DNA of 64,000 bases from Hirudinaria manillensis (taxonomy: Eukaryota; Annelida; Clitellata; Hirudinida; Hirudinidae): assembly GCA_034509925.1 (NCBI GenBank), contig CM067534.1, positions 698,501 to 762,500 on the forward strand, written 5' to 3'. The notes under the pieces are model-generated. The model saw only the letters and a list, made by a program, of their open reading frames with translations. It was not told the origin of the DNA and searched no databases. A program made the position numbers and the translations under genes. Below are positions 8,101 through 33,553 of this stretch, one piece after another; the stretch's first letter is position 1; every line of letters begins with the position of its first letter.

Positions 8101-8963
8101 AAAAATATTTGTATGATTAATGTGCAAAATCTGATCATTTTTTTACTGGGCAAAAACAGAAAGCCTCATCGTCATCTTCATCATCGTCGTCGTCATCGTC
8201 GTCATCGTCGTCTTCGTCTTCATCGGATGAAGATAAAAAAAAGGCCCCAGCGCAAAAGTCTCCAGCAAAGAAAAAGGTGATATTATTATTTTTGAATTTT
8301 TCCTCGTCACTTTTACATAGGATTTCATACGCATACTTATATTATTTTTTGTTTATTTATTTCATTATATTTGCATAACAACATAAAGTACGTATCACAA
8401 ATATTAAAAAAAAAAAAACCTCAGGCGAAATTAATTAACAAGGAAAAACCATGAAGCTTGAACATTTATTATTAAGGAGTTTCACTTCACTAAAGATTCA
8501 TTCTTGACCTATTTCATATAAAAGGGCATTTTCTGTTCCAATCGGTTTTGGAGAATTGTGTGCCTGAAATTTTACGTTACTAAATGACGGGTATCCTTGT
8601 AATGTTATTGGTCCAAATAATCTTTACACTTTAGTTAATAAAATTGAAGATTAAAAATGGTGATTGATAAGTAAATACACTTCATGGTGACTGTTAAGAA
8701 TCTCAGTTTATCATTTATGTAAAATCCCTTTCATAAGTATCGCCGAAATGTTGGTCACTTTGTGACAGGCTATCCTCTAGAAAGGATTTAAATTATCTTG
8801 GGATATACCATGAATTTGTGATTTTTTTTGTGTGATTTGGTGTAATTATATCTGGTAATAAGTTTAAATTCAATTCACGAAGGCTTCCAAATTATAATAA
8901 TATTGTTGTTGACAGGAATCTTCTTCATCGTCGTCTTCATCATCAGATTCTGACAGCGATTGA
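2153..8963 (+). CDS. SH3BGR-like protein: thioredoxin-like head plus long Ser/Lys/Asp-rich tail, 18 exons
   Basis: Exons read: 2153-2197, 2520-2708, 3017-3127, 4036-4068, 4406-4453, 4639-4725, 5072-5107, 5182-5199, 5316-about 5363, 5490-5561 (or 5534), 5821-5949, 6176-6568, 6634-6678, 7115-7231, 7601-7711, 7783-7902, 8160-8276, 8916-8963. All borders are phase 0 and the product is about 580 residues. Exons 1-3 give a SH3-binding glutamic-acid-rich (SH3BGR/SH3BGRL) domain of about 115 residues: MVVKVYLS start, RKKQ, WLLESKQIEHEVIDI, RKFMREN, LPPQIFN (the family's Pro-rich motif) and a DYKSFFEAVE segment. This is a glutaredoxin/thioredoxin fold without an active CxxC. The rest replaces the usual Glu-rich C-terminus with Ser runs followed by DDDDK or EDDKK, Lys-rich blocks and a KKPEPPTTT repeat. 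The tail resembles acidic serine tracts phosphorylated by casein kinase 2 (inference). The exon 9 donor is not GT (see findings), and exons 8-10 are the least certain. Family call for the head is firm; function of the tail is unknown. Confidence 0.83.
6275..6544 (+). repeat. 27-bp coding minisatellite, ten nonapeptides of type KK(P/T)xPPTTT
   Basis: Ten 27-base units inside exon 12 of the SH3BGR-like gene encode KKPDTPSTA, KKPEPPTTT, KKTEPPTTT, KKPAPPTTT and similar variants. Unit edges are in frame, so copy-number change keeps the reading frame. The block is much more GC-rich than its surroundings, which also leaves antisense frames open; those are shadows. Confidence 0.93.
8699..8831 (+). 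repeat. Relic of a LINE 3' end in the last intron of the SH3BGR-like gene
   Basis: This stretch starts CTCAGTTTATCATTTATGTA and ends GAATTTGTGATTTTTTTT. It matches, with many changes, the 3' UTR of the minus-strand LINE at 29146-29280 read in its own sense. Both share the CTCAGTTTATCATTTATGTAAA start, a CCCTTTCAT block, a TATCCnCTAGA block and the same T-run end. It is a 5'-truncated copy of the same or a sister LINE family. It lies in the sense orientation within intron 17. Confidence 0.65.
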
Positions 8964-9037
8964 CAAGGCTTTGAGGACAAAAGACGATTTAAACTTTGTG
9001 TTTCATGATTTGATGTCGCCAAAATATCACGCCATAA

Positions 9038-9043
9038 AATAAA
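9038..9043 (+). terminator. Poly(A) signal AATAAA of the SH3BGR-like gene
   Basis: AATAAA lies 75 bases after the TGA stop at 8961-8963. The same 3' UTR block recurs in the second duplication unit near 18740, where it is joined directly to a decayed serine exon. Confidence 0.6.
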
Positions 9044-9456
9044 CTTATAACTGAGACCTGTGGATCAAAATATCAGCAATACTTGCAATTGTATAACAAT
9101 TCGTATTTTACCCAATGTTTTAATTGCTACCCTTTTTCAGGTTGAAGTTGAACTCGCTTTCCTAAAAGAGAGTTTGTATTAGTTTTTATTTAAATAATAT
9201 GTTGTTGTTGTTGATTTATGGTGTGATTTTCCTCGACCTTTAACCATAATAAATTGTGACAATGTGATGAATTTCTTTACATTTTTACAGTTTTTTGATA
9301 GATCGCTATACGGAGATGAAGAATCAAGAATTTTTCCGTTTTATTTGAGACCTTAGAAATACTCACATTTACGCTAATAATTTATGAATGGTAACCCAAA
9401 TGATACCTATATTTAGGAATAAAAAAAAAAATAATAATAATAATAATAACAATAAC

Positions 9457-9485
9457 AATAATAATAAAACCCCTAACAAACTTGG
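9457..9485. repeat. Target-site duplication, left copy (29 bp)
   Basis: The 29 bases ending in AACCCCTAACAAACTTGG recur at 11766-11794, flanking the non-LTR element. Unit 2 has a single copy (AACCCCTAAGAAACCTGG near 19437-19456) with no insert: an empty site that confirms the insertion. The duplication includes part of an AAT run. Confidence 0.85.
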
Positions 9486-11556
9486 CTGATGATGATCTCG
9501 CTGTTCACATGTCTCTCTGGTTGCTAACAGGAGTACCTCCCGCAACATTCAAATCGGGAATCGTCACATTCATTCCGAAGAATAAAGAGGCCTCGACTCC
9601 GAGCGATTATCGACCTATCACTGTTGGTCCGATTATGGCGCGTCTCTTCCATCGCATCCTTGGAGGTAGAATGTTGGGGAATTGGCCCCTGTCATCGAGA
9701 CAAAAAGCTTTCTGTCCGGGGGATGGCATTGCACAAAATCTCTTTCTCATCAAATCAATAATTCAAAAAAAGAAAGAACAGATCCAAAAACTTAACCTGA
9801 CATTTGTCGACGTCACCAAAGCTTTCGACTCAGTATCCCATAAATCTATCCTCAGGGCTGCTGCCAGACTCGGCACTCCACCTCTCCTCCTAAACTACTT
9901 AGAGGAACTGTACAAAGAAAGTGAGGTTCACTTTAAAGTCGAAGGAGTACTTACTAGAGGGGTACAGGTGAAAAGGGGAGTTCGTCAAGGAGACCCGATG
10001 TCCCCCCACTTATTCAATGCGGTCATGAATATGATAACCAGCGTACTGGATCAATAAATTGGTGTCACGGCTGGCAGAAATTCAACGATCAGATGCAATT
10101 ATATTGCATTCGCTGATGATCTGGTAGTGATGTCAACAACTGACATCGGAATGAAGAAGTTGATGGAGCAACTTGAAACTGCAATGGGCAGCGCAGGACT
10201 TAAGATCAATCCAAACAAGTGCGCTCACTCAGAACGGAAACTCATTGCAAGGAAAATCAATCCTACGCCCTACATTAAATTTGAATCACAGGATATCAAA
10301 GCAATAGACGTCTCACAGACTTACAAATACCTGGGGATACAGATTGGAGTTCGAAAGCAGCCAGTGTCGATCGGTTATGAAATTCAAAAGTCTCTCAACT
10401 CCATTTCAAAAGCACCAATTAAGCCTTACCAACGCCTATATATTCTAAAAGTTCATCTGATACCAAGCCTCGTTCACAAACTTACCTTTGGCGAGGTCAA
10501 CCTCGGTTCTCTGAGTTCCTCAGATACCGCGATTAGGAAAGCAACAAGACATTGGCTTCATCTTCCAAAGGATGTCCCAAAGCCATTTTACCATGCTCCC
10601 GTCAAATCCGATAGTCTGGGAATACTTCCACTTAAACAATGGGTTCCCCGGCTCAGAATAAATAGATTGACAGAGATCTTCTCTGAGACAGGTGGTCGTA
10701 AAGATGAATTCCTGTTGGATGTTCTTAGGAACAACACCCTGATCATGAGAGAATTCCGGAAATTTGGAACGTCGGAGGCAAAACAATTAAAACTGGATTG
10801 GAAAGTGGCGGCCTCAGAGAGCCTATACAAAACTGTAGACGGTTATGGATTAAGATCATTCACCAGAGGAATTGGAATGAGTGATTGGATTTCAGCAGCG
10901 GTTCCAAGAGTTCCATCTGGCCAATACATCAAATGCATAAAAGTCCGAGCGGCCGCACTTCACTGCAGACTCCGAGCATCGAGATGGAATCCTCTGGCTT
11001 CAAGGAGATGCGGGGAGGGCTGCAATTCTTTCGAATCGCTGGGCCACATGATCCGAGAACAGATGGCCCAAGGCATGAAAGACACAACGCTGTCGTTAGG
11101 GAATTAGAAAGAGAACTACGAAAAAGGGGCTATACTACGGTAATAGAGCCCCGTATTCCCACAGAAAAGGGATTCAAAATTCCTGATTTGTGTGCCTGGA
11201 GAGGTGACCTCTACATAGTGACTGATGTTGCCGTGACATCCGATGATTATGATTTAGACAAGTGTCATGAGAGCAAGGTTTCAAAGTACGACATTAAAGA
11301 TGTTCATGATTGGATGTTGAGGAATGTCACAGTCGGCGTCCATAGAATGCTTCCGAAGGTTGGCGCCTGCGTTTGCAACTGGAGAGGAGTCATGAGTGCA
11401 GAATCATACAGATTCTGGAGAGAGTGCGGCGCTTCGAAGACGAGTTTAATGTACGTTGTGCTCTCGGTCCTCAGCCACAGTTACAAAATCTGGAGGGCTC
11501 ACAGGTGCCCACTTCCGAGGGCAATGGCACTTTTTCGGACTGCGAATTTTCAATGA
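9486..11556 (+). pseudogene. Reverse transcriptase / restriction-like endonuclease of the R2/R4-like element, broken
   Basis: The frame opens directly at the truncation. RT motifs run in order: FIPKNKEASTPSDYRPI, a TFVDVTKAFDSV motif, a RQGDPMSPHLFN motif, and FADDLVV near 10108. A TAA at 10055-10057 interrupts the frame between the QGDP and FADD motifs, and the same frame then continues to 11107. A frameshift at about 11055-11070 moves reading to a second frame ending at 11556. Just before the shift is a C-x3-C-x7-H zinc knuckle whose last Cys is missing. After it comes the endonuclease core IPDLCAWRGDLYIVTDVAV followed by a Lys, the PD..D..K pattern of RLE nucleases. A short deletion that removed the knuckle's last Cys would explain both defects. 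Not functional as it stands. Confidence 0.85.
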
Positions 11557-11732
11557 CATTGGCAATTGACGTTACTCGGCGCGTTCGATCGTGATTTCAC
11601 CTTCTGACCGAATGTCCAGGGTGATCTCGGGCCCTAGTGCGGACACTAAACTTTGGAGAGGCCGTCGGAATATTGTTGTTTGTGTTTTGAGTGTGAGGCC
11701 GAGAAAATAAGAGAAAAAAATAAATAAAATAA

Positions 11733-11764
<32 letters not shown>

Positions 11765-11765
11765 T
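9486..11765 (+). mobile_element. 5'-truncated non-LTR retrotransposon with restriction-like endonuclease (R2/R4/Dong-like), copy 1
   Basis: A 2.3-kb insertion in duplication unit 1, bounded by a 29-bp target-site duplication. Its 3' end is GAGGCCGAGAAAATAAGAG followed by A-rich sequence and an (AAT)n tail. The insertion point is itself beside an AAT run. The coding part begins inside the reverse transcriptase, so the N-terminal zinc-finger/Myb part was lost by incomplete reverse transcription. The RT sequence and C-terminal endonuclease place it in the RLE group of non-LTR elements. The R4/Dong lineage is known for insertion at TAA repeats, which fits, but the clade has not been tested by phylogeny. 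Confidence 0.85.
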
Positions 11766-11794
11766 AATAATAATAAAACCCCTAACAAACTTGG
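11766..11794. repeat. Target-site duplication, right copy (29 bp)
   Basis: Same 29 bases as 9457-9485. The AAT run before it is one unit longer, consistent with slippage or templated tail addition at target-primed reverse transcription. Confidence 0.85.
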
Positions 11795-12785
11795 ATGATT
11801 AAGGATTAAGCTAATCCGATCTGCTCATAACTTTAGTAGAAGTTATTTTTATTTTCAACAATAACAACATCAACCAAATGAACAAATTCAAATGTTAAAA
11901 CTCAAGCAACACACTGTCATCCACAGATAAGAACATAATGAACATAGTCACGTGACCATACAATTTACAGCAATCCAACCATTATTTGTATTTTCTTTGT
12001 CTCTTCCACGCCACAACTAATTGTTTCCTAAACAAAGTGAATGAACTCGAAATTCTTCATGACGATGACTTTGACAATGATGATGACGATGATGACGCTT
12101 TGACAGCGGTGGATTGGCTCGTGAAGATCAACTATGTATGACGATTAACAAGGCCAACATGATGACGTTCAATATTAAAACCTCAGGCTTCATGACACCT
12201 GTTGATGAAAATAAAAATGCAATTTCACAAAATAATCAATTTAGTAATATCGTAATAAATAAATAATTAATTAATCTAATAATCAAATAAATTAATTAAG
12301 TAACCAATCATTTAAACACGTCAGTTAATTAAATTAGCGTTCTTATTGCCATCCATCCGTCCTCAGTATCTAGATCATCACTCCAAAATTAGTAACACGA
12401 GTCGGACCAAAAATATCCTCCAATACGAAATGTTAACCTTAACCTTTGTGCTAGTGATTCTATTTCCAGCAATTAAATAATATTTGGGATTATGATTAAT
12501 AATTATTAATAATAGTAAATAATAAGAATAATTAGCAATATTACTATTTGTATCTGTATCTATATTTTTTTTTATTAAAAAGTTCAAAATTAATATAAAA
12601 TTGAAAATAACTCTTTCAGAAAATATTGACTTTCAGATGAAGAGTCAAACTTTCCGGCCTTTGGATCTGAAATTATAAAAATTAAGTTGGAACATTTAAA
12701 GATCATAAATTAATTATTTAATATTTAAATACGGAATAATATTAATATTAAAATTAAAACAATCATCTATCATTTATAATAACAT
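11795..12785. other. Non-coding part of duplication unit 1
   Basis: AT-rich sequence almost identical to 19457-20465 in unit 2. It holds a GATGACGATGATGAC run near 12060-12100 but no supported gene; the small open frame at 12378-12587 lacks coding character. Confidence 0.6.
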
Positions 12786-13408
12786 TTATCACTAATAATA
12801 GCATCAACAGTAACGACAAGACGGTTACGAGTCTTTATAAATCTTTAAATACTGTTATAACCCGGGGGAAAGCAAACTGATCAATACGAGGTCAGGTTTA
12901 TTGGAAATATTCAGTCAATGTATCTAATCTGAGATGGGGAAAAGTTATGAGTTTCTTTAGACCTTAGTATTATTTAGTATTGAGGACCAGACTATCTAGC
13001 TATTGCATTAGAGATAATGCTACAAACACTATGAATGATGGAATAATTACTATTATTATTTCTCTAATAACTACTCTAATTATTATTATTATTAATTGGG
13101 TCAAAGATTACAACGATACAATCATTTTTAATAATTAACAAGAAAATAACTATAAACTTTGGTTTTATAAATGGTTACATAAATATTTTCTTTATTAAAG
13201 GCCTCAGAATTATTGTAAAATTGAAAATAACTGTACTGTACTAACCATCAGATGACGGCTTTGTTTCTGAATTGAGAAAAAGTATGTGAAAGCATTTAGA
13301 AATTATGAATTAATTATTTAATGTTAAATTACTTAATAATATTAATATTAAAATACAAATCATTTAACGTTAATAACAGCAACAGTAATGGCAATATCGT
13401 TATACGTA
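12786..13408. repeat. 590-bp repeat unit (single copy in duplication unit 1)
   Basis: Runs from about CAACAGTAACGACAAGACGG to AACAGTAATGGCAATATCG. Unit 2 has three tandem copies of it. Inside, CTGTTATAACCCGGGGG and, 25 bases on, AGGTCAGGTTTATT match the reverse complement of the 3' end of the solo LTR at 18811-19103, so the unit contains an old reverse-oriented LTR end. Confidence 0.75.
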
Positions 13409-13574
13409 ATAATAGTATTAATAACAATAGTAACAACAACAACAACAACAATTATAATAATAATAATATTAATAATAATAATAATATTGACAATAACAAT
13501 AATAATAATGATAATAAGTCTTTAGAAATTTTAAAATGCTATAATTTGCAATAAATAGCTAAATAAACAAGAAA

Positions 13575-14082
13575 CTAACTGACTACGATAGTTTTGTTGA
13601 TCGTTATAGAGCTATAGGATTCGTTCGTGGCCACGCATATTAGCTTGGCAGTTTGGTCCACCCAACTCTCAGGTACATTAAAAGCCACCTTACCATGGCC
13701 TTTCACGATTTGCTCGGTTTTGTCTTCTTCCCTGTTAATTATTACCTCCGGCGAGGGGTTTCCGTCGGCCTTGCACAACACTTGTTGGCCAGCGAAAAAT
13801 TCATTCGTCTCTGGCTCAAAGCTAGCGTGTCTCATAGGATCTAAAGATGAAAAGTATTTTGGTTAGATGTTTTTATGAGTTTATATTTAAAGATTGTTCT
13901 TAATAGAAATGATAGGCCGTCAATTTGAATAAGGCCATGCTCGTCATTCATGTTCAAATCAGGTCAAATTGTTTGATTTTTCCCTCTCAAGATCTTTCGT
14001 AGAATCAACACATACGAACAAACGAACATGAATTCACATAAAAGTGAACGAATAGTAAACTTAAATAAATAATTAAATACAG

Positions 14083-14163
<81 letters not shown>

Positions 14164-16334
14164 ATATATATACTTTTTAAAACGGACAAGCTAACGTTTA
14201 ACTTCAAAGGTGACGTTACATTTCTGATCCACGCTGTCCAACGTTGATGTACACATAAAAGTCTGCTTATCGTCTGTTGGTCCAAGAGCGGTCTTGAAGT
14301 GAAGATTCAAGAGATGCATACCGGCATTGTCATCAATCCTATCGTCTTCTTCGACGGTGAAAGGCTTGTCGAACTTGACCATTTTCATGATGGGTTCTCT
14401 TCCGTTGAAAGCAATCTTACAGTCGAATTCAAAGAAATCTCCCTCCATATATGTTTTAGATGCTCCGGTACAGATCAATGGACCTGAAACGGAGCGTTTC
14501 AATGAATCGTGGAGGTATAAAAACCATTACCATTTCGTTTTTAACAATTTTTTTGGCTCTCAAAGTAGTTTTTTTCTGAAAAAATAAATTAAATAAATAG
14601 AGACGTCCACTTTTGTAAGGAAACAAAGTATTCGAAAATGATTATAAGCAGAATTATCTTAATTTAGGCCTTTGTCGGGGGCAAGCGATGTGATAGGTTG
14701 TTTGATGTTTCGTCTTATTATATCGGAGGTACATTATTTAAAAACATCATTCAACACTATCATCGTCATGATAATCATGATAATTATCATCATCATCATT
14801 GCCAGGAACTCACCGTAGACGCTAAAATCGTAAATGATCTTGAATTCATCATCTCTGACTTTACTCTCGCAGGAGTAACTGCCATGGAATTCGAGGCTTA
14901 CATTGTAGATCGTAAGTGAATACGTCTTGAGGTCAATCCCAAATTGGGAAGCTTTGGTATGGCCATGGTTCATCATATTGCCTTCCTCGGTAACCTTAAA
15001 GATGTCTGAGTTGCCAAAGACGTCACCCCACCACCTGATCACCGGGGTCTCGTTCTTCTCTAAATTGCATTCCATTGTCACATTGTCGCCTTCTTTGGCG
15101 CTAATTTGGATGTCTGAAATGAGCCAGATGGTGCTGGTCGAGACCGGGAAGATTAAGATGGTAAAAATGGTAGTGATCAATAGTTATTTGTAAGGTGAGG
15201 CGATTATGACAGAATCGTGAATTCGTATTATAAGGATCCACTTTACTCCTAATGCTGTCTGAAGGCCAAGGACTAGTGATCGACCGGGGCGTCAATTTTG
15301 GCCGGGGCCGGGTTAGGGGGAGCGGTTGCCGGGGCAGCCGGGACCGAGGTTCAGGCGGGCCGGGGTTAGCCGGGGCCGGGGTTGAAGCCGGGGTTAGGGA
15401 TGCAATCTATAATAACGTTAACTAACGGTGCTTTTATTCTCTAAACATGTTGTAAACGTCAAATAATATATAAGTATGCTTATTATGTCAAAGAGATTCT
15501 GTAAAACCTGTAATTAAAAATATTTTCATAACGACAACTCTTCCACGCTCCGTTGCGAAAACTTAGAAAAATCATTAAATCGTTGATGGAATCTCATGAA
15601 AATCAAATCTTATTGAATACTAATTGATTACTGTTTTGTGAACGCAATAGTGATGAAAATTAAACGGTAATTTATTTTAAAACTCATAGTTTTAAGGACA
15701 TCATTCCAGGTTCCAGCCGATGATGTTTTTTAACACCATCGAGTTAAGGAAACTTTCTCAGGCTCCTTTCGAGGGGAGGTACCTGAATCTTGTTGAGGAA
15801 CCCAGTAATGTTTTTTTTTTAATTAAAAGCTACGAGGAGATTGGATATCTAGGATGACTGATGGATTTTCCAGAAAGTTCCATGAAATATTATTGGTGAA
15901 TGGGTAGCTGAGGACTTTAACTCTCTGAACGATATATTTTATGATTCGTCGGATGATGAATAAATTTTATTTAAGTTGGCAAACCTAAAAATTCCACTTT
16001 TGTTTACCCCCGGCTAAACCCCGGTTGAATTTAAGCCGGGGCGGGACCGGGGCCGGAGAATGTTAAAAAGCCGGGACCGGGGCGGGGACCCCGGTGGTAA
16101 AAAAGGCTGGGGTTCAGCCGGGTCCGGGGTCTCCGGTCGATCACTACCAAGGACATTGCTTTGAAATCAGTAACTACTCAAAACCACCAATTAATTAACT
16201 CATTAAATTACTAATTACGAATAAAGTTAAAAATCCCAACAAAAAAAAAAGATAAACTCACTTTCAATCGTGGGGACAATACTTAATAGGTAGACATAAA
16301 GTAAGGTACCCCAGAATAATAATCTGGTGACCAT
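13575..16334 (-). CDS. Secreted three-Ig-domain protein, paralogue A
   Basis: Four exons on the minus strand: 16262-16334 (signal peptide MVTRLLFWGTLLYVYLLS), 14814-15113, 14196-14483 and 13575-13840. All introns are phase 1, the usual arrangement for Ig exons, with donors GTGAGT, GTGAGT and GTTAGC. Product about 319 residues. Ig1 shows the Cys, WW and S-L-T-I-Y..G-S-Y-S-C pattern of a V/I-type domain. Ig2 has its two Cys in FDCKI and TFMCTS. Ig3 has VLCKADGNPSP and LICVATNES. Several NxT/NxS sites suggest glycosylation. The frame stops at TAG after INKTIVVS with no membrane helix; a GTTAGT donor overlaps the stop, so a further exon cannot be excluded, but none is visible. Intron 1 contains an 873-bp hAT-like insertion and intron 3 a (TA)n run. 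Role unknown; cell-surface or humoral recognition is inferred. Confidence 0.8.
14081..14173. repeat. (TA)n microsatellite in intron 3 of Ig gene A
   Basis: About 90 bases of TA dinucleotides with a few ATGTATG interruptions. The equivalent intron of paralogue B (25505-25625) has a different, more broken AT run. Confidence 0.9.
15274..16146. mobile_element. Non-autonomous hAT-like DNA transposon, 873 bp
   Basis: Perfect 14-bp terminal inverted repeats TAGTGATCGACCGG / CCGGTCGATCACTA, flanked by an exact 8-bp target-site duplication CCAAGGAC (15266-15273 and 16147-16154). An 8-bp duplication and TAG-type ends are typical of hAT elements. Ig gene B lacks the insert at the same place (CTAAGGACATTG near 26706), an empty site. 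Both subterminal regions, about 130 bp each, are dense in GCCGGGG and GGGACC motifs, while the middle is AT-rich. No transposase frame is present, so it must have been moved in trans. Confidence 0.93.
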
Positions 16335-17586
16335 TTTATCTTTTACTATTTACTCTGACGATTTGTAGCTAAGAAGAGATGATAGGTTCTTTATTATGCA
16401 ATACATACGATATATAAGTGCAATATGTATGCTTTTATGATGGTATTATTTATATATTTATGATTATTTATTTCCAATGCCATCTGAGGACCGATGCTTC
16501 TCCATTGCTCACAACAATTAATGAGGGGCTAACTAAACTAGGGAAAAATTGATAAGGGGACGTAAACAAATGTTTAAATAATAATAACAATAATAATAAC
16601 AAGTCATGACTACCAATAAGAGATGCAAATCAACAGTAAGATATCAATATGGTAATAGGAAGAGAGTCTACTTTAACTGTGCGATTAATAAAAGTATCTA
16701 GTGGAGTCTATTGTACATATTGAGTCCACATCTTAGTTAAATATGATACTCTCTAGAGGAGGAATAGGTGGCTTCATGAATGTGATTCATGATCAGTAGA
16801 TATGAGATTATTTGGATAAATGTAGAAAATGTGTAGGAAGTTCACAGGGCAACATAAAAAAATGCAAAAATAAACTTTTTTTTAAAGTAAAACTATACCC
16901 TCGATTTGAATTTGAAAAATGATGCCCGACGATAGAAAGATCAGGCAATCTTGCAAAGTAAGGATATCATCTTATTAAGTTTTAACAGCTTTGTCCAATA
17001 CACATTCGGTCATCGCAACAAGAAGAATACCAATAATAATAATAACAAACCCTAACAAACTTGATTGATTAAGTTTTCGACTAATCCTATTTGCTAATAA
17101 CTTTAGGAGAATTTATTTAGATACTCAGTCAGTTGCAAGGTTCAAGTTAAAATAGCTTTAAATCTTTCAAGATAACTCCAAAGATGGTACAAATAATTCC
17201 ATAAACCAAGTTTCGCCCTGTATTTGTTAAATTTTTTTGCGATTTATTAATAACGGAACAGATAATTTATAAACAATAGCGACAGCCAGCGTAACCGTCA
17301 AATTCAAATTACAACGTATTAACGAGCTTCAACGAGCTTTTCACATTAATTTAAAAAAGTTACTAGAAAAAAATTATTTGTTGCTAGTATATTATTAGTA
17401 TATTATTATAACAGACATGGTAACTACAGTGACTAGAATAGAAAGTGCAACCTAAAGCATTTGAAGCCATGCCATCACACTATAAACAGTTGAAAGCTTT
17501 TTATAGGCCGCTCACTATTCAACGTTTAATAATATTTGTATCCAATAATATGACATTAAGCAGATTGACTTTGTTTAAAAAGCTAG
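16335..17586. other. Upstream flank of Ig gene A, end of unit 1
   Basis: Non-coding. Contains short AAT runs (16575-16600, 17032-17045), another AACCCTAACAAACTTGATTG block like the one at 9466-9485, and the duplication breakpoint. Promoter elements of Ig gene A would lie at 16335-16500; a TATATAAG at about 16412 is suggestive only. Confidence 0.5.
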
Positions 17587-17856
17587 CTCTGGCTAATTTG
17601 ATTGATAACATTAGACAGTGCCGTATTTTAGTGCTGTTAATACTGTTATTAAATAAATAAATTGAAATCATCACAACAGTATTAACAACAATTAAGCTTT
17701 CAGCACTCACACAATATAACAAAGACAGATGATAAGAATATCACGTGATTGACATTCTTCACGATAACACATTGAACAACAATACGGAAAAACACAAGGA
17801 ATAGGGAAATAATTCCCATTAAAGCATGCATCTTAATTGTTTTTGTGTTATCGAAG

Positions 17857-18760
17857 AAAAAGTCAAGCTCATCATCAAGTTCCTCATCGTCCTCGTCATC
17901 TTCATCTTCATCATCTGACGAAGATGATAAAATTCAGCCACGCGTAGCGAAGAAAGCTGAGGAGGCCAAGACTGTGAGTCTATTTTAGTTAAACAAATTC
18001 GTCTTGCGATGTTGAAGGACTGACGACGCCAATTTTAGAACTCAGAACTAAATATAATTCAGTAACAAAACCTTCAATTCTAATGAATAAGATGGTTCCG
18101 ACCGAATGAAATTCTAAAATCAAGCCTTTTTCTCATCAAGTCATTTCAAGAAATTTAAAATATATATATATATATATATATATATAACTTTCAACTATTC
18201 CAAATTCGGGACTTCTGCCGTCCTACATGGCTAATAGATTATTTTAAAAATAAATTTTTGATGACATTATTTTTGGACTGAAGGTAAGGGGATCGTTCTA
18301 ATTAGAACACGCCTTTTCATTGTTTCACTGTAATTTTGTATCATTGAAAAAAAAGTCAAGCTCATAATCATGATAATCTTTATCATCATCATCATCGGAT
18401 AATGGTGATAAGCCAGCAACAAAGACTGAACCTGAGAAAAAAAATGAGTGAATTCATTCACCTCATAATGTGCATAAAAAGCCTTTTGTAATGATCAGTT
18501 TTCATGAACTGTGCATTAAAATGGTTTTCACGGAAAAATAATTATCATTGAAAACAGCGTCGAAGGCATTTATTGACGCAATTTAATTTAATATGAATAA
18601 AATAAATAAAACAAATAAAACTTAAAGATTTAAAAAATTGTTTAACATTAGAAAAGTAATTAGTTTTTTACCACTTTATCCAACATCAGTAAGTGGCAAA
18701 AAAATCCACCCCTTCTTCCTCCTCCTCCTCCTCCTCCATAAAATAAATTTATAACTGAGA
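17857..18760 (+). pseudogene. Decayed duplicate of the 3' exons of the SH3BGR-like gene
   Basis: 17857-17973 is an intact copy of exon 14 with its CGAAG acceptor and GTGAGT donor and one Ser-to-Arg change. The exon 15 copy (around 18348) has lost its AG acceptor (TTGAAA instead of TTGAAG) and gains a TAA after AAGTCAAGCTCA. The exon 16 copy (around 18690) keeps only the first Ser codons and is fused by deletion to the 3' UTR (CCATAAAATAAATTTATAACTGAG), so exons 17-18 and the stop are gone. Since the 5' exons exist only upstream of unit 1, this tail has no head. Confidence 0.85.
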
Positions 18761-18810
18761 CCTCCGGATCAAAATATCAACAATACTTGCAATTGTATAA
18801 CAATTCGTAT

Positions 18811-19103
18811 TGTTAGATCCCTGGATCCAGATAATTGAAGAATAATTAAATTATATTGCTGATTAATTAATTTAGTAATTAATTAAATTGAGTGGCAATA
18901 TAATTTGAGAATTAATTGGTACTATTCAGAGTCCTTGGTTATAAATCTAGACAAATAGATTTATCTCGAAAAGAGAGCGAGAGTAAGGGAAACAGCAGAT
19001 TCCAAGACTTAGACATTTGAGCATTGTACATCTTCCAAGCCATCTGAACACTTTCAATAAACCTGACCTTCCATAATTAGTTTGAGGACCCCGGGTTATT
19101 ACA
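18811..19103 (+). mobile_element. Solo LTR, 293 bp
   Basis: Begins TGTTAGATCCCTGG and ends GGGTTATTACA, with 4-bp flanking repeats GTAT on both sides (18807-18810, 19104-19107). Unit 1 has the uninterrupted site TTCGTATTTTACCC at about 9100. It contains a TATAAAT at about 18940 and a CAATAAAC poly(A)-type signal near 19057, as expected of an LTR promoter and terminator. No internal retrotransposon sequence is present. A 5-bp duplication GTATT is an alternative reading of the ends. Confidence 0.85.
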
Positions 19104-19456
19104 GTATTTTACCCAATGTCTTAATTGCTACCCTTTTTCAGGTTGAAGTTGAACTCGCTTTCCTAAAAGAGAGTTTGTATTAGTTTTTATTTAAATAATA
19201 TGTTGTTGTTGATTTATGGTGTGATTTTCCTCGACCTTTAACCATAATAAATTGTGACAATGTGATGAATTTCTTTAAAAAATTTTATTTCTGTCCGGAG
19301 ATGAAGAATCAAGAATTTTTCCTTTTTGTTTGAGAGCTTAGAAATAATCACATTTACGCTAATAATTTATGAATGGTAACCAAAATGATACCTACATTTA
19401 GGAATAATAATGATAATAATAATAATATTAATAATAAAACCCCTAAGAAACCTGGT

Positions 19457-20465
19457 TGATTAAGGTTTAAGCTAATCCGATTTGCTCATAACTTTAGTAG
19501 AAGTTATTTTTATTTTCAACAATAACAACATCAACCAAATGAACAAATTCAAATGTTAAAACTCAAGCAACACACTGTCATCCACAGATAAGAACATAAT
19601 GAACATAGTCACGTGACCATACAATTTACAGCAATCCAACTATTGTTTGTATTTTCTTTGTCTCTTCCACGCCACAACTAATTGTTTCCTAAACCAAGTG
19701 AATGAACTCGAAATTCTTCATGACGATGACTTTGACAATGATGATGACGATGATGACGCTTTGACAGCGGTGGATTGGCTCGTGAAGATCAACTATGTAT
19801 GACGATTAACAAGGCCAACATGATGACGTTCAATATTAAAACCTCAGGCTTCATGACACCTGTTGATGAAAATAAAAATGCAATTTCACAAAATAATCAA
19901 TTTAGTAATATCGTAATAAATAAATAATTAATTAATCTAATAATCAAATAAATTAATTAAGTAACCAATCATTTAAACACGTCAGTTAATTAAATTAGCG
20001 TTCTTATTGCCATCCATCCGTCCTCAGTATCTAGATCATCACTCCAAAATTAGTAACACGAGTCGGACCAAAAATATCCTCCAATACGAAATGTTAACCT
20101 TAACCTTTGTGCTAGTGATTCTATTTCCAGCAATTAAATAATATTTGGGATTATGATTAATAATTATTAATAATAGTAAATAATAAGAATAATTAGCAAT
20201 ATTACTATTTGTATCTGTATCTATATTTTTTTTATTAAAAAGTTCAAAATTAATATAAAATTGAAAATAACTCTTTCAGAAAATATTGACTTTCAGATGA
20301 AGAGTCAAACTTTCCGGCCTTTGGATCTGAAATTATAAAAATTAAGTTGGAACATTCAAAGATCATAAATTAATTATTTAATATTTAAATACGGAATAAT
20401 ATTAATATTAAAATTAAAACAATCATCTATCATTTATAATAACATTTATCACTAATAATAGCATC
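19457..20465. other. Non-coding part of duplication unit 2 (copy of 11795-12785)
   Basis: Near-identical to the unit 1 sequence; differences are scattered single bases. No gene seen. Confidence 0.65.
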
Positions 20466-22265
20466 AACAGTAACGACAAGACGGTTACGAGTCTTTATAA
20501 ATCTTTAAATACTGTTATAACCCGGGGGAAAGCAAACTGATCAATACGAGGTCAGGTTTATTGGAAATATTCAGTCAATGTATCTAATCTGAGATGAGAG
20601 AAAGTTATGAGTTTCTTTATTTAGTATTGAGGACCAGACTCTCCAATTTTAATGCTATTGCATTAGAGATAATGTTACAAAGACTGTGAATGATAGAATA
20701 ATTTCTCTTATTATTTTTCTAATAATTACTCTAATTATTATTATTAATTGGGTCCAAGATTATAACGATACAATCATTTTAAATAATTAACTGTACAAGA
20801 AAATAACTGTAAACTTGGTTTTGTAAATGGTTACATAAATATTTTCTTTATTAAAGGCCTTATAATTATTATAGGATTGAAAATAACTGTGCTGTATTAA
20901 CCATCAGACGAGCTCGGCTTTGTTTCTGAATTGAGAAAAATTATGTGAAAGCATTTAGAAATTAAGAATTAACTATTTAATGTTAAATTACTTAATATTA
21001 ATATTAAAATACAAATCATTTAATGTTAATAACAGCAACAGTAATGGCAAGACTGTTACGAGTAATAATAGCAGTCTTTATAAATCTTTAAATACTGTTA
21101 TAACCTGGAGAAAAGAAAACTGATCAATACGAGGTCAGGTTTATTGGAAATATTCAGTTAATGTATCTAATCTGAGATGGGGAAAAGTTATGAGTTTCTT
21201 TAGACCTTAGTATTATTTAGTATTGAGGACCAGACTCTCTAGCTATTGCATTAGAGATAATGCTACAAACACTATGAATGATGGAATAATTACTCTTATT
21301 ATTTTTCTAATAATTACTCTAATTATTATTATTAATTGGGCCCAAGATTCCAACGATACAATCATTTTGAATAATTAACAAGAAAATAAATATAAACTTT
21401 GGTTTTATAAATGGTTACATAAATATTTTCTTTATTAAAGGCCTCAGAATTATTGTAAGATTGAAAATAACTGTGCTGTATTAACCATCAGACGAGCTCG
21501 GCTTTTGATCAATCTTTGGTGCTGAATTGAGAAAAATGATATGAAAGCATTTACAGATTATGAATTAATTATTTAATGCTTAATTACTTAATAATATCAA
21601 TATTCAAATACAAATCATTTAACGTTAATAACAACAACAGTAATGGCAAGACTGTTACGAGTAATAATAGCAGTCTTTATAAATCTTTAAATACTGTTAT
21701 AACCTGGAGGAAAGCAAACTGATCAATACGAGGTCAGGTTTATTGGAAATATTCAGTTAATGTATCTAATCTGAGATGGGGAAAAGTTATGAGTTTCTTT
21801 AGACCTTAGTATTATTTAGTATTGAGGACCAGACTCTCCAATTTTAATGCTATTGCATTAGAGATAATGTTACAAAGACTGTGAATGATAGAATAATTTC
21901 TCTTATTATTTTTCTAATAATTACTCTAATTATTATTATTAATTGGGTCCAAGATTACAACGATACAATCATTTTGAATAATTATCAAGAAAATAAATAT
22001 AAACTTTGGTTTTATAAATGGTTACATAAATATTTGCTTTATCAGAATTATTGTAAGATTGAAAATAACTGTGCTGTATTAACCATCAGACGAGCTCGGC
22101 TTTTGATCAATCTTTGGTTCTGAATTGAGAAAAATTATGTGAAAGCATTTAGAAATTATGAATTAATTATTTAATGTTTAATTACTTAATAATATTAATA
22201 TTCAAATACAAATCATTTAACGTTAATAACAGCAACAGTAATGGCAATATCGTTATACGTAATAA
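20466..22265. repeat. Tandem array of three 590-bp repeats
   Basis: Copies are marked by CTGTTATAACC at about 20512, 21095 and 21694 (periods about 583 and 599). Each is followed by the GAGGTCAGGTTTATTGG block and ends with AACAGTAATGGCAA. The second and third copies share CCTGGAG where the first has CCCGGGGG, so the array grew from one copy after the segmental duplication. Open frames inside are AT-rich chance frames. Confidence 0.85.
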
Positions 22266-22288
22266 TAGTATTAATAATAATAGTAATA

Positions 22289-22299
22289 ACAATAACAAC

Positions 22300-22372
<73 letters not shown>
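22289..22372. repeat. (AAT)n microsatellite
   Basis: About 28 AAT units directly before the R4/Dong-like copy 2. The corresponding place in unit 1 (13430-13515) is a mixed AAC/AAT run without insertion. Confidence 0.95.
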
Positions 22373-22373
<1 letters not shown>

Positions 22374-22387
22374 TAATATTAATAATA

Positions 22388-24716
22388 ACGATGACGACTC
22401 GAGAATAATATTGCTGCTCGAGCGGTTGACCGGTACAGACGAAATATCGTTTGCTCGTTACAAATTACTGCTTTTGCGCACTGTAACGAGTTTTTGCTTC
22501 GAATTCTGGTCAATTTGTGTCCCCTACCAATCTTTTCGTGGTTGGTTAGCATAACTTCTGGAAAAAAAGGGGAAAATAAAGCTGTGAATTGGAAATAACA
22601 GTTTCTTTGATTGTCTGATAATTTAGTTGATAGGACTTCACAGTTTGCAAAGGACTTCGAGCTAGTTTGTTCAATTTCTCCAAGTATCGCTGGTCGGAAG
22701 AAGAATCTCATATGCTTGCAAAATTGAAATTGAATTAAAGCAGGAAGGTTTCAAGAATGTAAATATTGAAGTTCAAAAAAGGTTTCAACATCGATCCTTG
22801 GCAGCCATCAGGAGCCATAGACACCAATCGTCTTACCGAAAGATCATGAGGGCTCAGTCTGTTGATATGAACAACAGAGAGGTTACGGAATCAATTGATG
22901 AAAATAACGAAGGAGATTGTCCAGCCATTCCTTCCGTAGATGATGATGAGCGAAAACATCGCCAGAGCAGAGTTGAGTTTGAACTTATTAGAAAAGAAAA
23001 GAATCAATCTGGCCATACACAGAATCGTGCCTCAATTTTCAATTAAATCAATTCGGAAAATCAGAAATAAACCCAGTTATCGCCAATATCTTAATGATAT
23101 CATAATGCAAGAAATAATTTCAAAAACCAAAGAAATAAGAGTTCCTTCGATCCAGTGGAAGATATGGTAAACAGTGAGATCAAATTACAACAATTTATTC
23201 TGAATCGCTATGAATGCATCCATCTTTCTAGCGAAGAACTGTTCTTGCTGCTCTGCAATTCAACAGACAAGACCACTCAGCAAGAGCTAATAGACAAAGA
23301 ATATAGCAAGTGGACAGAAAATCTTCTCTCCTCAATAACCGGTCAACCATCATCCAAAAAACTTCGAAACGACCCACACAAAAGAAAAGAACAAAGCCAA
23401 ACAATGCCAAAGGTCGAATGTTCGTGAAAGCAAAGACTACACTCAGCAAAAAAGAACTGAGAACCATTGAAAGTCAGAGACAAAGGAAAGTAATTCAAGA
23501 TTTGTTCAGGAAAAATCCAGCAGCAGTGTTGACAGAGGAATTCAAAGAAAAGTCAAAGGCAACTCCAGGAAAAGAATTGATCGAGTATTGGGAGCAAGTT
23601 TTCTCAAAAAAGTCAGTTGAAGATGATAGACCAGTGACAGTTGTTGGCGGAACTCTGTATGATTTAGAATTGCCAGTCACCAGCGATGAGGTGAACTCTG
23701 CTATTAGAGGTCTCCGAGATGCTGCGCCAGGACACGACAAATTAAAGAAAGAGCACATAGAAACGATCAAGAATATTGACTTTGCAGTTCACCTGTGTCA
23801 CTGTGGCTATTAAATGGTTTGCCCCCGTCTTCATTCAAAATTGGGATCGTCACATGCATTCCAAAAATAATTGGAGCCACCAACCCAAGCGAGTTCAGAC
23901 CAATAACAGTGAGTCCAATCATTGGTCGACTCTTTCATAGGATCCTCAACAGACGGATGATCTCCTTCTTGCCGTTATCTCTGCACCAAAAAGCGTTTCG
24001 TCAAGAAGATGGTCTGGCCGATAATATAGTCCCTCATCAAGAAAAAGAAGAAGGAACTGAAAAAGTTAAATTTGACCTTCGTAGACGTATCTAAAGCGTT
24101 TGATTCAGTTTTTCATCAAACAATCATGAGAGCTGCTCCTCCATTGTTTATCAATTACTTGACAGAACTGTACAGAAATAGTTGGGTTCAAATCAAGACG
24201 GCGGACGGAATTAGTAATCGCATTCAAGTGGACAGAGGCATCGAGCAAGGAGATCCAGTGCCTCCTATGCTTCTCAATGCCGTTATTGACATGGTCCTTA
24301 GCGAAGTGGACAAGTCAATCGGCGTAACAGGAGACGCTGAGTCCAGAATAATAATAGAAGCAATAGCAGAAGAGTCTTGGAGGGTTTGGAGGAGATTTGG
24401 GGTCTCGAGGAGGTTCCTCATGTGGACCTCCATAAAAAAGACCCATAAGATTTGGCAAACTTTTAAAAATAACGCCTGGAGAAGGAAAAAGAAGAGTTGA
24501 ATTGAATGACATTTGTGAATGTAGAATGACTATTAAGATCGACTTGAAAGTCATTTTTTTCTTCGATGGTCTGACTGGATTTCCCAGGCCCATTGGCGGA
24601 CCTATAATTATTGAATCGGATTATGAACTGATTGCTTTTTGTGAGGTTTTGGACGGGCTAATAAAGGAAAAAATGATGACGACGATAATAATAATAATGG
24701 TAATAATAATAATCCG
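22388..24716 (+). mobile_element. R2/R4/Dong-like non-LTR retrotransposon, copy 2, full-length-like but internally deleted
   Basis: It lies between an AAT run and a GATAATAATAATAATGG run. A 5' leader (22388-22740) is followed by decayed coding sequence. Near 22800 there is an N-terminal segment (HRSLAAIRSHRHQSSYRK), then a pre-RT region with APGHDK, then an RT core with IGIVTCIPK, TFVDVSKAFDSV and EQGDPVPPMLLNAV. The sequence after GVTG jumps to a region equal to the post-endonuclease end of copy 1 (AESYRFW-type and YKIW-type motifs), so the FADD motif and the endonuclease are deleted. Confidence 0.75.
22738..24500 (+). pseudogene. Decayed polyprotein of R2/R4-like copy 2
   Basis: Successive frames must be changed at about 23040-23160, 23310-23420, 23795 and 24070 to follow the protein. 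The shift near 23795 interrupts FAVHLSLWLLNGLPP, which is collinear with the start of copy 1. The catalytic FADD and the PD..D..K nuclease core are absent because of the internal deletion at about 24328. Clearly dead. Confidence 0.8.
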
Positions 24717-25095
24717 CTTATGTTCGAGCGAGCGATAAGTGCGTACGTTTTATTTTGGCTCTCGAGTTTAAACGATTAAACATCGCTTCAAGGTCAATTT
24801 TTAAAATTGATTTTACTTTCTGCTCGTGTCCCCTACCGTTAGTTTGTCTTTCGGTGAAAAGCCTACTTCCCCGAGGGAATTTAGAAAAAGGGGAAAATAT
24901 ACATGCACAACCGTAGTATTCGATATTTCTCTCGGGTAACAAGCAGGTTAAGAAACACAGGAATCGTTATTCCTCAGCGGTTGGTTGTATTTGGTGTTGG
25001 TTTGGTGATTATGAAAGATTAGAACGGTCAGAATAAAGCCCGTGGCTTTCAAAGACCGTTTTTGGCTGAGAAAATAAAGGATAAAAAATAATGAT
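24717..25095 (+). mobile_element. Short non-autonomous derivative: 5' leader joined to 3' end of the R4/Dong-like family
   Basis: 24717-24940 resembles the 5' leader of copy 2 (22400-22600); both contain GTGTCCCCTACC and, about 50 bases later, AAAAAGGGGAAAATA. It continues into a 3' end GGCTGAGAAAATAAAGG like that of copy 1 (GGCCGAGAAAATAAGAG). There is no coding sequence between. It starts after an AATAATAATAAT run and ends in AATAATAAT, so it looks like a separate insertion at an AAT run rather than the tail of copy 2. Confidence 0.55.
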
Positions 25096-25166
25096 AACAA
25101 TAATAATAAGTCTTTAGAAATTTTAGAATGCTATAATTTGCAATAAATAGCTAAATAAACAAGAAA

Positions 25167-25599
25167 CTAACTGGCAACTACGATAGTTTTGTTGATCGTT
25201 ATAGAGCTATAGGATTCGTTCGTAGCCACGCATATTAGCTTGGCAGTTTGGCCAGCCCAACTCTCAGGTACATTAAAAGCCACCTTACCATGGCCTTTCA
25301 CGATTTGCTCGGTTTTGTCTCCTTTCCTGTTAATTATTACCTCCGGCGAGGGGTTTCCGTCGGCCTTGCACAACACTTGTTGGCCAGCGACAAATTCATT
25401 CGTCTCTGGCTCAAAGCTAGCGTGTCTCATAGGATCTAAAGATGAAAAGTATTTTGGTTAGATGTTTTTATGAGTTTATATTTAAAGATTGTTCTTAATA
25501 GAAATGATAGGCCGTCAATTTGAGTAATATATTATAATTAAATATTATATAAATATTATATATATAATATATATTAATATATAATTATATATATATAAT

Positions 25600-25631
<32 letters not shown>

Positions 25632-26893
25632 TTCTCTTTAAAACGGACGAACTAACATTTAACTTCCAAGGTGAAGTTACATTTCTGCTCCACGCCGTCT
25701 AACGCTGTTACACACATCAAAATCTGCTTATCGTCTGTTGGTTTAAGAACGGTCTTGAAGTGAAGACGCAAGAGATGCTCCACGGAAATATCATCAGTCT
25801 TATCATCTTTGGTGTGAGGATTGTCGAGCCTTATTATGTAAATCCTTGGACTTCTACCGATGTAATCGATCTCACACTCGAAATCAAAGGAATCTCCTTC
25901 CATGTATGTTTTAGATGCTCCGCTACAGTTCAATAAACCTGAAACGGAGTGTTTTCAGGTGTAAAAACCATTACCATTTCGTTTTTAACAATTTTTTTTT
26001 TGGCTCTCAAAGTAGTTTTCTGAAAAAAATAAATGAAATAAATAGAGACGTCCACTTTTGGAAGGAAACACAGTATTCGAAAATGATTACAAGCAGAATT
26101 ATCTTAATTTAGGCCTTTGTCGCGGGTAACCGATGTGATAGGTTGTTTGATGTTTCGTCTTATTATATCGGAGGTACGTTATTTAAAAGCATCATTCAAC
26201 ATTATGATCGTCATGATAATCATGATAACCATCATCATTGCCAAGAACTCACCGTAGACGCTAAGATCATAAATGATCGTCGGATATTCATCTCTGATTT
26301 TACTCCAGCAGAAGTAACTGCCGAAGAATTCGAGGCTTATATTGTATATCGTAAGTGAATACGTCTTGAGGTCAACCCAAAGTTGGGGAAATTTGGTATG
26401 GTCATCGTTCGTAATATTGCCTTCCTCGGTAACCTCGAAGATGTCTGCGTCGCCAAAGACGTCATCCCACCACCTGATCACCGGGGTCTCGTTCTTTTCT
26501 AAGTTGCATTCCAATGTCAGATTGTCGCCTTCTTTGGCGCTAATTTCGATGTCTGAAATGAGCCAGATGGCGCTGGTCGAGATCGGGAAGATTAAGATGG
26601 TAAAAATGGTAGTGATCAATAGTTATTTATAAGGTGAGGCGATTATGACGGAATCGTGAATTCGTGTTATAAGGATCCACTTTACTCCTAATGTTGTCTG
26701 AAGGCTAAGGACATTGCTTTGAAATCAGTAACTACTCAAAACCACCAATTAATTAACTCATTAAATTACTAATTACGAATAAAGTTAAAAATCTCAACAA
26801 AAAAAAAAAGATAAACTCACTTTCAATCGTTGGGACAATACGTAATAGGTAGACATAAAGTAAGGTACCCCAGAATAATCCTCTTGTGACCAT
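25167..26893 (-). CDS. Secreted three-Ig-domain protein, paralogue B
   Basis: Exons 26821-26893, 26253-26552, 25657-25938 and 25167-25435, with the same phase-1 borders as paralogue A. Signal peptide MVTRGLFWGTLLYVYLLR. All three Ig domains keep both Cys and the Trp of Ig1. Compared with A by eye, the signal exon differs at 2 of 24 residues and Ig3 at about 5 of 86, but Ig1 at about 26 of 100 and Ig2 at about 40 of 96 plus a 2-residue gap, while introns differ by only about 5 percent. Intron 1 lacks the hAT insert. Ends at TAG after INKTIVVAS without a membrane helix. The intact frames and splice sites in both copies indicate both are under selection. Confidence 0.82.
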
Positions 26894-28787
26894 TTTATCT
26901 TTTACTATTTACTCTGACGATTTGTAGCTAAGAAGAGAAGATAGGTTCTTTATTATGCATTACATACGATATATAAGTGCAATATATATGCTATTAAGAT
27001 GGTATTATTTATATATTTATGATTATTTATTTATTTCCAATGCCATCTGAGTACCGATTCTTCTCAATTGCTCACAACAATCAATGAGGGGCTAACTAAA
27101 CTAGGGAAAAAATTGATAAGGGGACGTAAACGTAAATATTTAAATTGATACTCTCTAGAGGAGGAATAGGTGGCTTCATGAATGTGATTCATGATCAGTA
27201 GATACGAGATTACTCATTATTTTTATGAGAGGGCGATGTTCTATTATTATTATTATTGTTATTGTTATTATTTTCATTACTATTATTATCACTATCATTA
27301 TTATTATTATTGAAACTTTTAAAACAAAATTGCTAATTAGCTATACGTTTAAGCTATACTGAAATTATGAACTATTTGAATAAATGTATAAAATATGTAG
27401 GAAGTTCACAGGGCAACATATAACGCATCAAAAATAATTTTTTTTTTAAATAATCTATACCCTCGATTTGAACCTCGAACATTATAATTCATTAATTAAA
27501 TATTTTTAAAAAATAATAATATCATTTTTAAATACATTCAGTAATATTTCTTTAGAAAATTGAATTACAGATGATATTTCGCATCATTAATAACAAAATT
27601 GATGCCCGACGACAGAAAGATCAGTCAATCATAAGGCAGTAAGGATATCATCTTATTAAGTTTTAACAGCTTTGTCCAATACACATTCGGTCATCGCAAC
27701 AAGAAGAGTATCAATAGTAATAATAATAATAACAATAATAACAAACCCCCCTAACAAACTTGATTGATTAAGTTTCCGACTAATCCTATTTGCTCATAAC
27801 TTTAGTAGAATTTATTTAGATACTCAGTCAGTTGCAAGGTTCCTGTTAAAATAGCTTTAAGTCTTTCAAGATAACTCCAAAGATGTTACAAATTATTCCA
27901 TAAACCAAATTTCACCTGTATTTGTTAAATTTTTTGCGATTTATTAATAACGGAACAGATAATTTATAAACAATAGCGGCAGCCAGCGTAACCGTCAAAT
28001 TCAAATTCCAACGTATTAACGATTTGAAGCTCGTTTGAAAATTTCAATTTTAAAATAAATTTTTTAACCGTTCATTTTTAGATTAAAAGTTACGAATTCC
28101 AAAAAATATAATTCTAATTTTTCAAAATTTTAAAGTTTCAGAGTTGCTTTATTTATCAACATAGAAACCAAGGTTCCGACTATGAATTGGTATGAATTGT
28201 TCATAACTCTGTTTGGTAGACATTAATTAGACACTCACTTCAGTGAATGGTAAGGTTCCAGCAAGTCTTTTTTTTATATTTACATATTTAATAAAATATC
28301 TATTTTGAGACTGCCTCGGTTTGGTAACTATCTGAAGAAATTAAGGAAACGTTATTACGTGTTTTATTAAATATTAAATATCAAATTAAATTTGGTTAAA
28401 CATGTTAAATCTTAAATTTTAGACCTTCGGTTATTCCTTTTACTCTTTTTAGATTTTGTTGACTCAATTCTCTTTTTTTGCTGTTAGATTCGATTAGAAT
28501 GCGCGATTTGGCTTGTTTGGAGTTCTAGAGGCCAATAAATTTACGAGCTACATTTGTTAGACTTATTAACCAACGAACATATGATCCTCTTGGCTTGATC
28601 TTGAGAAATCAAGGTTATCCTAAAAAGTGGTAGGCTATAATATTTTCAACCTCTGCATTAGTATCTACTGCGTCCGCGCAAAGAACAAAAATAGGATTTG
28701 TTTCGTTAACGCTCAATATTCAACGTTTAATAATATTTGTATCCAATAATCTGACATTAAGCGGATTGACTTTGTTTAAAAAGCTAG
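26894..28787. other. Upstream flank of Ig gene B, end of unit 2
   Basis: Copy of 16335-17586 plus extra sequence. Includes an ATT-rich run (27241-27312) and an AACCCCCCTAACAAACTTGATTG block at about 27743. No gene. Confidence 0.55.
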
Positions 28788-32390: not shown

Positions 32391-32393
32391 TTT

Positions 32394-32591
32394 TCATACT
32401 TTCTTGGTACTTGTTGATGAATCTACAGTCTTTCCAGACAAAGAATGCATTATAAGACTTATATCATCCAAAACTGTTGAAACATAGTCTAAATTGCCGG
32501 GGTTAATAATGGAGACGAATGAAACTGAAAATAAATCTTCTAGAAACAAAAACCCCAAGATGAGAGGAAAAGAAAAATAAACCACAGACAT
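32394..32591 (-). CDS. Short ORF between LINE ORF1 and ORF2 (65 codons), hypothetical
   Basis: It starts 13 bases after the ORF1 stop and ends with TGA three bases before the ORF2 ATG. That spacing would suit termination-reinitiation for ORF2 translation. The first half is hydrophobic, the second half Ser/Thr-rich. No family recognised; it may be chance. Confidence 0.3.
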   Translation of the reverse strand: MSVVYFSFPLILGFLFLEDLFSVSFVSIINPGNLDYVSTVLDDISLIMHSLSGKTVDSSTSTKKV

Positions 32592-32604
32592 CGACTAGAT
32601 GAGG

Positions 32605-33324: not shown

Positions 33325-33553
33325 TTTACAGGGGAGTGTCGTGAGTACTAAACAATGGAACAAACGAAGGCCATGCAAAACAAACACTTGTCTCGAAAAT
33401 TTAAGCACCGGCAAGAAGCGAAAAACGACGACGAGTCGAACAATATAACTTTTATCGAGTTTTTTCAAAGAAAAACATCAGAAAAAAACCGAATTAGTAG
33501 CAAGCCACAACATTTGACCCTTCCCACTCGCTCGCTCGCTAAACCCACAGCTT

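Follow-up and report, generated by a model that had tools for sequence, protein, structure and literature searches.

The window analysed here, a stretch of 64,000 nucleotides from the leech Hirudinaria manillensis (contig CM067534.1, positions 698,501 to 762,500), holds two neighboring genes, A and B, for proteins with three immunoglobulin (Ig) domains, and raises the question of why two exons of these copies differ far more than the introns beside them. The assembly also contains the annelid haemoglobin-linker family Eryth_link_C, for which 14 control genomes gave no match. As the earlier note on this DNA had recognized, the genes lie in a tandem duplication: the A and B segments align in blocks (Table 1), and each holds part of a second gene, presumably NOLC1-like, together with one Ig gene. 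An 875-bp mobile element that is high-copy in the genome occupies part of intron 1 in A and is absent from B, so its insertion probably postdates the duplication. C, a distant third copy, lies on the same contig about 1.8 Mb from A and B; we looked for its signal exon and found none.

We located the exons of A and B and spliced them in silico. Both genes are read from the minus strand; each Ig domain has an exon to itself, and every intron is in phase 1. Cysteines, frames and splice sites had been described as intact in both copies, and indeed the 8 cysteines of A are matched in B and the frames are open. The gene ends, previously placed at 13575 (A) and 25167 (B), had to be revised. In A, B and C, a donor site (A|GTTAGT) immediately precedes the stop taken as the gene end, and on the present model this stop is therefore intronic, with a predicted extension to 12128 in A and 19789 in B. 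The extension comprises small, Ser-rich stalk exons in predicted phase 1 (A has two, B has four, and one was found for C) and a last exon of 71 nt with a predicted hydrophobic tail, identical in A and B and with a counterpart in C. These stalk and tail exons are predicted from genomic sequence rather than from transcripts. In both A and B the stalk exons lie within tandem repeats, each roughly 600 bp, which suggests that repeat expansion enlarged the stalk. The predicted spliced proteins have 349 (A) and 373 (B) amino acids. In the predicted products of A, B and C the C-terminal tail is hydrophobic and without a cytoplasmic segment, and this hydrophobic tail points to a GPI anchor for A and B.

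In a Pfam scan, Ig_3 and I-set scored above cut-off for Ig1 of both A and B, Ig3 of both stayed below cut-off, and Ig2 of A and B gave no Ig match; Ig2 of C gave a weak I-set match. The modelled structure of Ig2 from A has an Ig fold. Its four cysteines fall on predicted strands A, B, F and G of this model, an arrangement that suggests two disulfides.

Table 1. Features of the duplicated Ig genes, in positions of the window.
Feature	Position	Strand	Basis
Duplication unit 1, NOLC1-like gene part and gene A	6837..17325	.	block alignment
Duplication unit 2, NOLC1-like fragment and gene B	17587..28022	.	block alignment
Gene A exon 1, signal peptide	16262..16334	-	in-silico splicing
Mobile element, high-copy in genome, 875 bp, A intron 1 only	15274..16148	.	
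Gene A exon 2, Ig1	14814..15113	-	in-silico splicing; Pfam Ig_3 2e-8, I-set 5e-7
Gene A exon 3, Ig2, four Cys, most diverged exon	14196..14483	-	in-silico splicing, A/B alignment
Gene A exon 4, Ig3	13580..13840	-	in-silico splicing, Pfam scan
Gene A stalk micro-exon 1, predicted, 21 nt, phase 1	13246..13266	-	splice sites and repeat unit
Gene A stalk micro-exon 2, predicted, 36 nt	12631..12666	-	0/36 differences from B; counterpart in C
Gene A last exon, predicted, hydrophobic GPI-signal-like tail and stop	12128..12198	-	0/71 differences from B; counterpart in C
Gene B exon 1, signal peptide	26821..26893	-	in-silico splicing
Gene B exon 2, Ig1	26253..26552	-	in-silico splicing, Pfam scan
Gene B exon 3, Ig2, fast-changing copy, 2 codons shorter	25657..25938	-	in-silico splicing, A/B alignment
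Gene B exon 4, Ig3	25172..25435	-	in-silico splicing, Pfam scan
Gene B stalk micro-exon 1, predicted	22084..22119	-	
Gene B stalk micro-exon 2, predicted	21486..21521	-	
Gene B stalk micro-exon 3, predicted	20902..20925	-	
Gene B stalk micro-exon 4, predicted	20291..20326	-	
Gene B last exon, predicted, hydrophobic GPI-signal-like tail and stop	19789..19859	-	

Exon-by-exon alignment confirmed that the outer Ig exons of A and B have diverged faster than the adjoining non-coding DNA. Ig1 differs at 38 of 300 nucleotides and 26 of 100 residues, and Ig2 at 60 of 282 nucleotides, plus one 6-nt indel, and 39 of 94 residues. The signal exon shows 5/73 nucleotide and 2/24 residue differences, and Ig3 7/264 (a count that takes in 3 bases beyond the true exon end) and 6/87. 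Among the non-coding parts, 8 of 273 positions differ in intron 1 (pieces 1/113 and 7/160), 20 of 311 in intron 2, 1 of 92 in the alignable part of intron 3, 10 of 245 in the 5' flank and 6 of 85 in the 3' flank, which pool to 45/1006; the 875-bp element, the AT-microsatellite part of intron 3 and 24 bases by exon 3 were excluded. Two further non-coding blocks gave 48/1653 (3' block) and 67/864 (NOLC1-like block). Ig1 and Ig2 both exceed the pooled local non-coding DNA (p=2e-6 and p=2e-16) and also the most diverged large block, 67/864 (p=0.014 and p=3e-9).

Faster change in coding sequence than in introns, as first claimed, thus holds for exons 2 and 3 but not for exons 1 and 4, and equal divergence of introns and exons is contradicted by the contrast between Ig2 and the local non-coding DNA. 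The earlier estimate of about 5 percent for introns 2 and 3 needs a correction: the non-coding DNA is not uniform, its blocks ranging from 1/113 to 67/864 (p=2e-6 over 9 blocks). Per 100 bases along the Ig1 exon we counted 6, 14 and 18 differences, so that only the last two thirds are raised, and the divergence profile rises inside exon 2, falls at the 3' end of that exon and is highest in exon 3. The drop beside exon 3 is less sharp: the adjoining bases differ at 4/24 in intron 3 and at 4/40 in intron 2, compared with 14/231 for the central part of intron 2, although these numbers are small.

Because the non-coding blocks differ among themselves, we measured replacement and synonymous change in exons 2 and 3 against three baselines: the local one, the higher-divergence blocks (134/1921, picked after the block divergences had been seen) and the NOLC1-like block. 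Replacement change exceeds them 4.73-fold (p 1e-16), 2.90-fold (p 8e-12) and 2.61-fold (p 3e-8), and synonymous change 3.00-fold (p 0.001), 1.99-fold (p 0.022) and 1.75-fold (p 0.068), respectively; compared with each other, the two rates give p 0.11, 0.18 and 0.16, and under an unequal-base nucleotide model this comparison gave a ratio of 1.83 (p 0.03). Counting put plain dN/dS at 1.08, and a likelihood fit put it at 1.51 (p 0.17). (For Ig3, the plain dN/dS set ran over 88 codons, up to the false stop; later comparisons used 87.) The ratio in exons 2 and 3, about 1.1–1.8, is not significantly above 1 in most fits because the synonymous rate has gone up too, most of all in Ig2, where by itself it reaches 2.3–4 times the non-coding level (p 0.035 to 0.0014). 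The synonymous rise of 1.75–3-fold in exons 2 and 3 is not accounted for by selection alone.

Including C adds a direction to the comparison. In a three-sequence fit of exons 2 and 3, the ratio was 1.48 for the branches leading to A and B, compared with 0.31 for that of C (likelihood ratio 18.6, p 1.7e-5); tested against 1, the A/B value gave p 0.19. Ig3 showed no such contrast (0.72 for A/B versus 0.48 for C, p 0.6). For Ig2, protein identity is 58.5% between A and B and 60.4% between A and C, whereas codons for the same amino acid differ at 8 of 55 and 24 of 58 positions, respectively (p 0.002). After the duplication, protein change thus ran far ahead of silent change. Polarized with C, the Ig2 replacements fall mostly on B (34, against 5 on A and 10 ambiguous), and those of Ig1 divide into 13 on B, 10 on A and 9 ambiguous. 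Synonymous changes were also polarized and counted, but not used because the same-amino-acid codons of A and C already differ widely.

We weighed several histories. The one that we favor, with a probability of roughly 0.55, is that A and B are duplicated genes for anchored three-Ig surface proteins, that selection diversified the outer domains and most strongly Ig2 of B, and that gene conversion acted in patches elsewhere. Diversifying selection had been proposed before; in its favor are a replacement rate of 2.6–4.7 times the non-coding one and an A/B ratio above that of C, and against it stands a dN/dS that mostly does not significantly exceed 1. The sequence of events would begin with the tandem duplication of a segment of about 10.5 kb carrying such a gene. 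Selection for altered binding would then have changed the membrane-distal Ig1 and Ig2, with most Ig2 replacements on B, while Ig3, stalk and anchor stayed nearly unchanged, in part through gene conversion homogenizing the 3' half. Such patchy conversion would make the 3' half look younger. A GPI anchor would hold the protein on the outer leaflet, with the Ser-rich stalk and Ig3 as a spacer, and Ig1–Ig2 may bind a partner, which could sit on a second cell, belong to the matrix or be carried by a foreign particle. A and B would by now have different or altered binding partners. The main loose end is the raised silent change in Ig2, which leaves room for a deeper coalescence or the import of a diverged allele.

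A deeper coalescence is possible but unlikely. The duplication would be older (about 7–8% or more), later conversion would have homogenized introns, Ig3 and anchor, and exons 2 and 3 would have escaped by selection or chance. The patchy non-coding divergence, lower in the 3' block than in the NOLC1-like block, fits this history, as does synonymous change in exons 2 and 3 that is clearly above local non-coding DNA but only marginally above the oldest-looking block. Replacement change, however, is still 2.6 times that block. Moreover, intron 2 lies between both fast exons and has so few differences that conversion tracts would need ends near the exon edges, and four-fold sites of exons 2 and 3 differ at only 2 of 39 positions.

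Somewhat less probable again is that Ig2 and part of Ig1 of B were copied from a diverged allele or from a lost or unassembled paralogue. The one-sided Ig2 replacements, the synonymous rise in Ig2 and the raised-looking borders of exon 3 would all suit such an import. The earlier note had suggested conversion from other family members and a genome-wide search for donor copies. We searched the H. manillensis assembly (148,429,096 bases, 23 contigs) with protein and DNA queries and recovered only A, B and the distant C. Three protein queries gave 17 matches (11 on A, B or C), 8 (7) and 12 (9); the remaining 10 were weak, with E 4e-4 or worse and identity of at most 32%. One DNA query matched B, A and C and nothing else; the other gave 72 listed rows (40 of 182 candidates scored), all but 6 of them hitting the mobile element in intron 1 of A. 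No donor for exons 2 and 3 beyond A, B and C was thus found in this genome by either kind of query. The same-amino-acid codons of Ig2, far closer between A and B than between A and C, argue against a normally constrained old donor. Together, the searches and these codons lend no support to conversion from other family members.

We consider it improbable that exons 2 and 3 carry alleles long maintained by balancing selection, two divergent ones of which were captured by the tandem copies, at a leech locus for self/non-self or pathogen recognition. Balanced alleles raise both synonymous and replacement change in MHC genes; here the flanks would recombine freely and stay similar, and both kinds of change would be raised in exons 2 and 3 only. 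If true, this reading would mean that an annelid has a polymorphic recognition locus of the Ig type.

We give little credence to relaxed constraint, that is, to neutral drift of the copies or their outer domains. A ratio indistinguishable from 1 in most fits is consistent with it, and hydrophobic and polar sites changed alike (Ig1, 11/39 versus 15/61; Ig2, 17/37 versus 22/57), which also lends no support to a targeting of the surface. By itself, however, relaxed constraint cannot lift replacements above the non-coding rate, and Ig3 and the tail are intact. We simulated random mutation of exons 2 and 3 of A with the same number of changes (20,000 runs, two transition biases). Freedom from stops and retention of all 6 cysteines of Ig1–Ig2 coincided in 0.2–0.4% of unconstrained runs; the real copies show this, without a frameshift. 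The 98 changes altered 65 codons, against a mean of 65.6–66.9 under unconstrained mutation, so that, although the total is raised, protein change is on average in near-neutral proportions. Since some sites are held, the remaining ones must evolve somewhat above neutral. Local mutation bias or assembly error is highly improbable: nothing but the raised synonymous change speaks for it, CpG bias was rejected as the cause since 7/38 and 5/59 of the differences in exons 2 and 3 are CpG-context transitions and exon 4 is not raised despite a similar CpG number (14 versus 12–19), and the assembly is described as built from PacBio HiFi reads (PMC10671345).

The exon-faster-than-intron pattern of duplicates has a known precedent. 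For the serum-protein (SSP) duplicates of the snake Protobothrops, intron divergences of 0.065 and 0.049 and KA/KS of 1.74 and 1.54 are reported (PMC6609765), numbers close to those of A and B. The SSP products are soluble serum proteins, whereas A and B encode a predicted anchored Ig protein in which the rise is confined to two exons.

IgLON, lachesin and DIP are three-Ig, GPI-anchored adhesion proteins. A and B resemble them in their three Ig domains and may also share the GPI anchor; they differ in the four cysteines of Ig2, the predicted Ser-rich micro-exon stalk and the fast evolution. Among the best 60 of 386 matches in a PDB sequence search we saw no close match; Dscam (7e-4) and DIP-theta (0.05) appeared with many antibody chains intermixed. 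CD2/SLAM and CTX-type proteins carry a membrane-distal pair of domains, the second with two extra cysteines, and the extra pair in Ig2, here on predicted strands A and G, recalls them. Unlike the two-domain ectodomain of CD2/SLAM, A and B have three Ig domains, and in sequence the link goes no further than generic Ig matches.

Alr proteins span the membrane and signal inside the cell, whereas the predicted A/B chain would stop at the membrane. The Hydractinia Alr allorecognition family, like A and B, consists of invertebrate Ig-domain proteins from linked genes, but it has 41 genes (PMC11999971) against 3 members found in the leech assembly, where our searches revealed no such large linked family. 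Searches of open-licence PubMed Central papers listed none that, judged by title and opening of the abstract, deals with this leech Ig gene family.

The pattern in A and B is a pointer to selection for new binding and does not by itself imply an immune role. Fast-evolving Ig duplicates occur in immunity, reproduction, adhesion and neural settings, and the present data do not separate these uses. Surface recognition receptors of this animal group have, to our knowledge, been little studied, and this locus sets fast change in the exons for both outer Ig domains cleanly against introns, an inner Ig and an anchor of the same gene that are nearly static. By eye, we also noticed reverse-transcriptase-like frames between Ig3 and the stalk of B.

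Each repeat unit in the stalk regions of the tandem three-Ig genes A and B holds one predicted stalk exon, a phase 1, Ser/Pro-rich exon of 21–36 nt between Ig3 and the last exon. Therefore, judging from sequence, the stalk seems to grow through repeat expansion. In paralogue C, the distant third copy, we detected one stalk exon and a counterpart of the hydrophobic tail; its signal exon was looked for and not found.

Features and their coordinates (in the window unless a contig is named)
Feature	Position	Remark
~600-bp tandem repeats, gene B stalk region	20226–22370	four predicted stalk exons
~600-bp tandem repeats, gene A stalk region	12566–13517	two predicted stalk exons
Paralogue C	contig C9 2484000–2493500	exon plan as in A/B
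Ser-rich, presumably NOLC1-like gene fragment	17587–18471	copied together with gene B
High-copy mobile element	15274–16148	intron 1 of gene A only
Reverse-transcriptase element remains	9404–11107	Pfam match
Reverse-transcriptase element remains	22666–24500	by eye only
Reverse-transcriptase element remains	29430–33477	Pfam match
ABCA-type transporter, 2132 aa	44641–51039	Pfam ABC_tran, R1_ABCA1

The Ser-rich gene partly duplicated with gene B is one that we take to be NOLC1-like. The fragment, perhaps a pseudogene, differs from 6837–7739 at 67 of 864 sites. Within the gene, 27-nt tandem repeats (6221–6598) encode PTTTKKPEP-like units.

The mobile element carries inverted ends, and by eye a target duplication of 8 bp seems to be present, a length that leads us to regard it as hAT-like. 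One of the two Pfam-matched reverse-transcriptase remains contains an 811-aa endonuclease-RT frame. The ABCA-type transporter is encoded in a single open frame without interruption, which to our knowledge is unusual for an animal gene this large.
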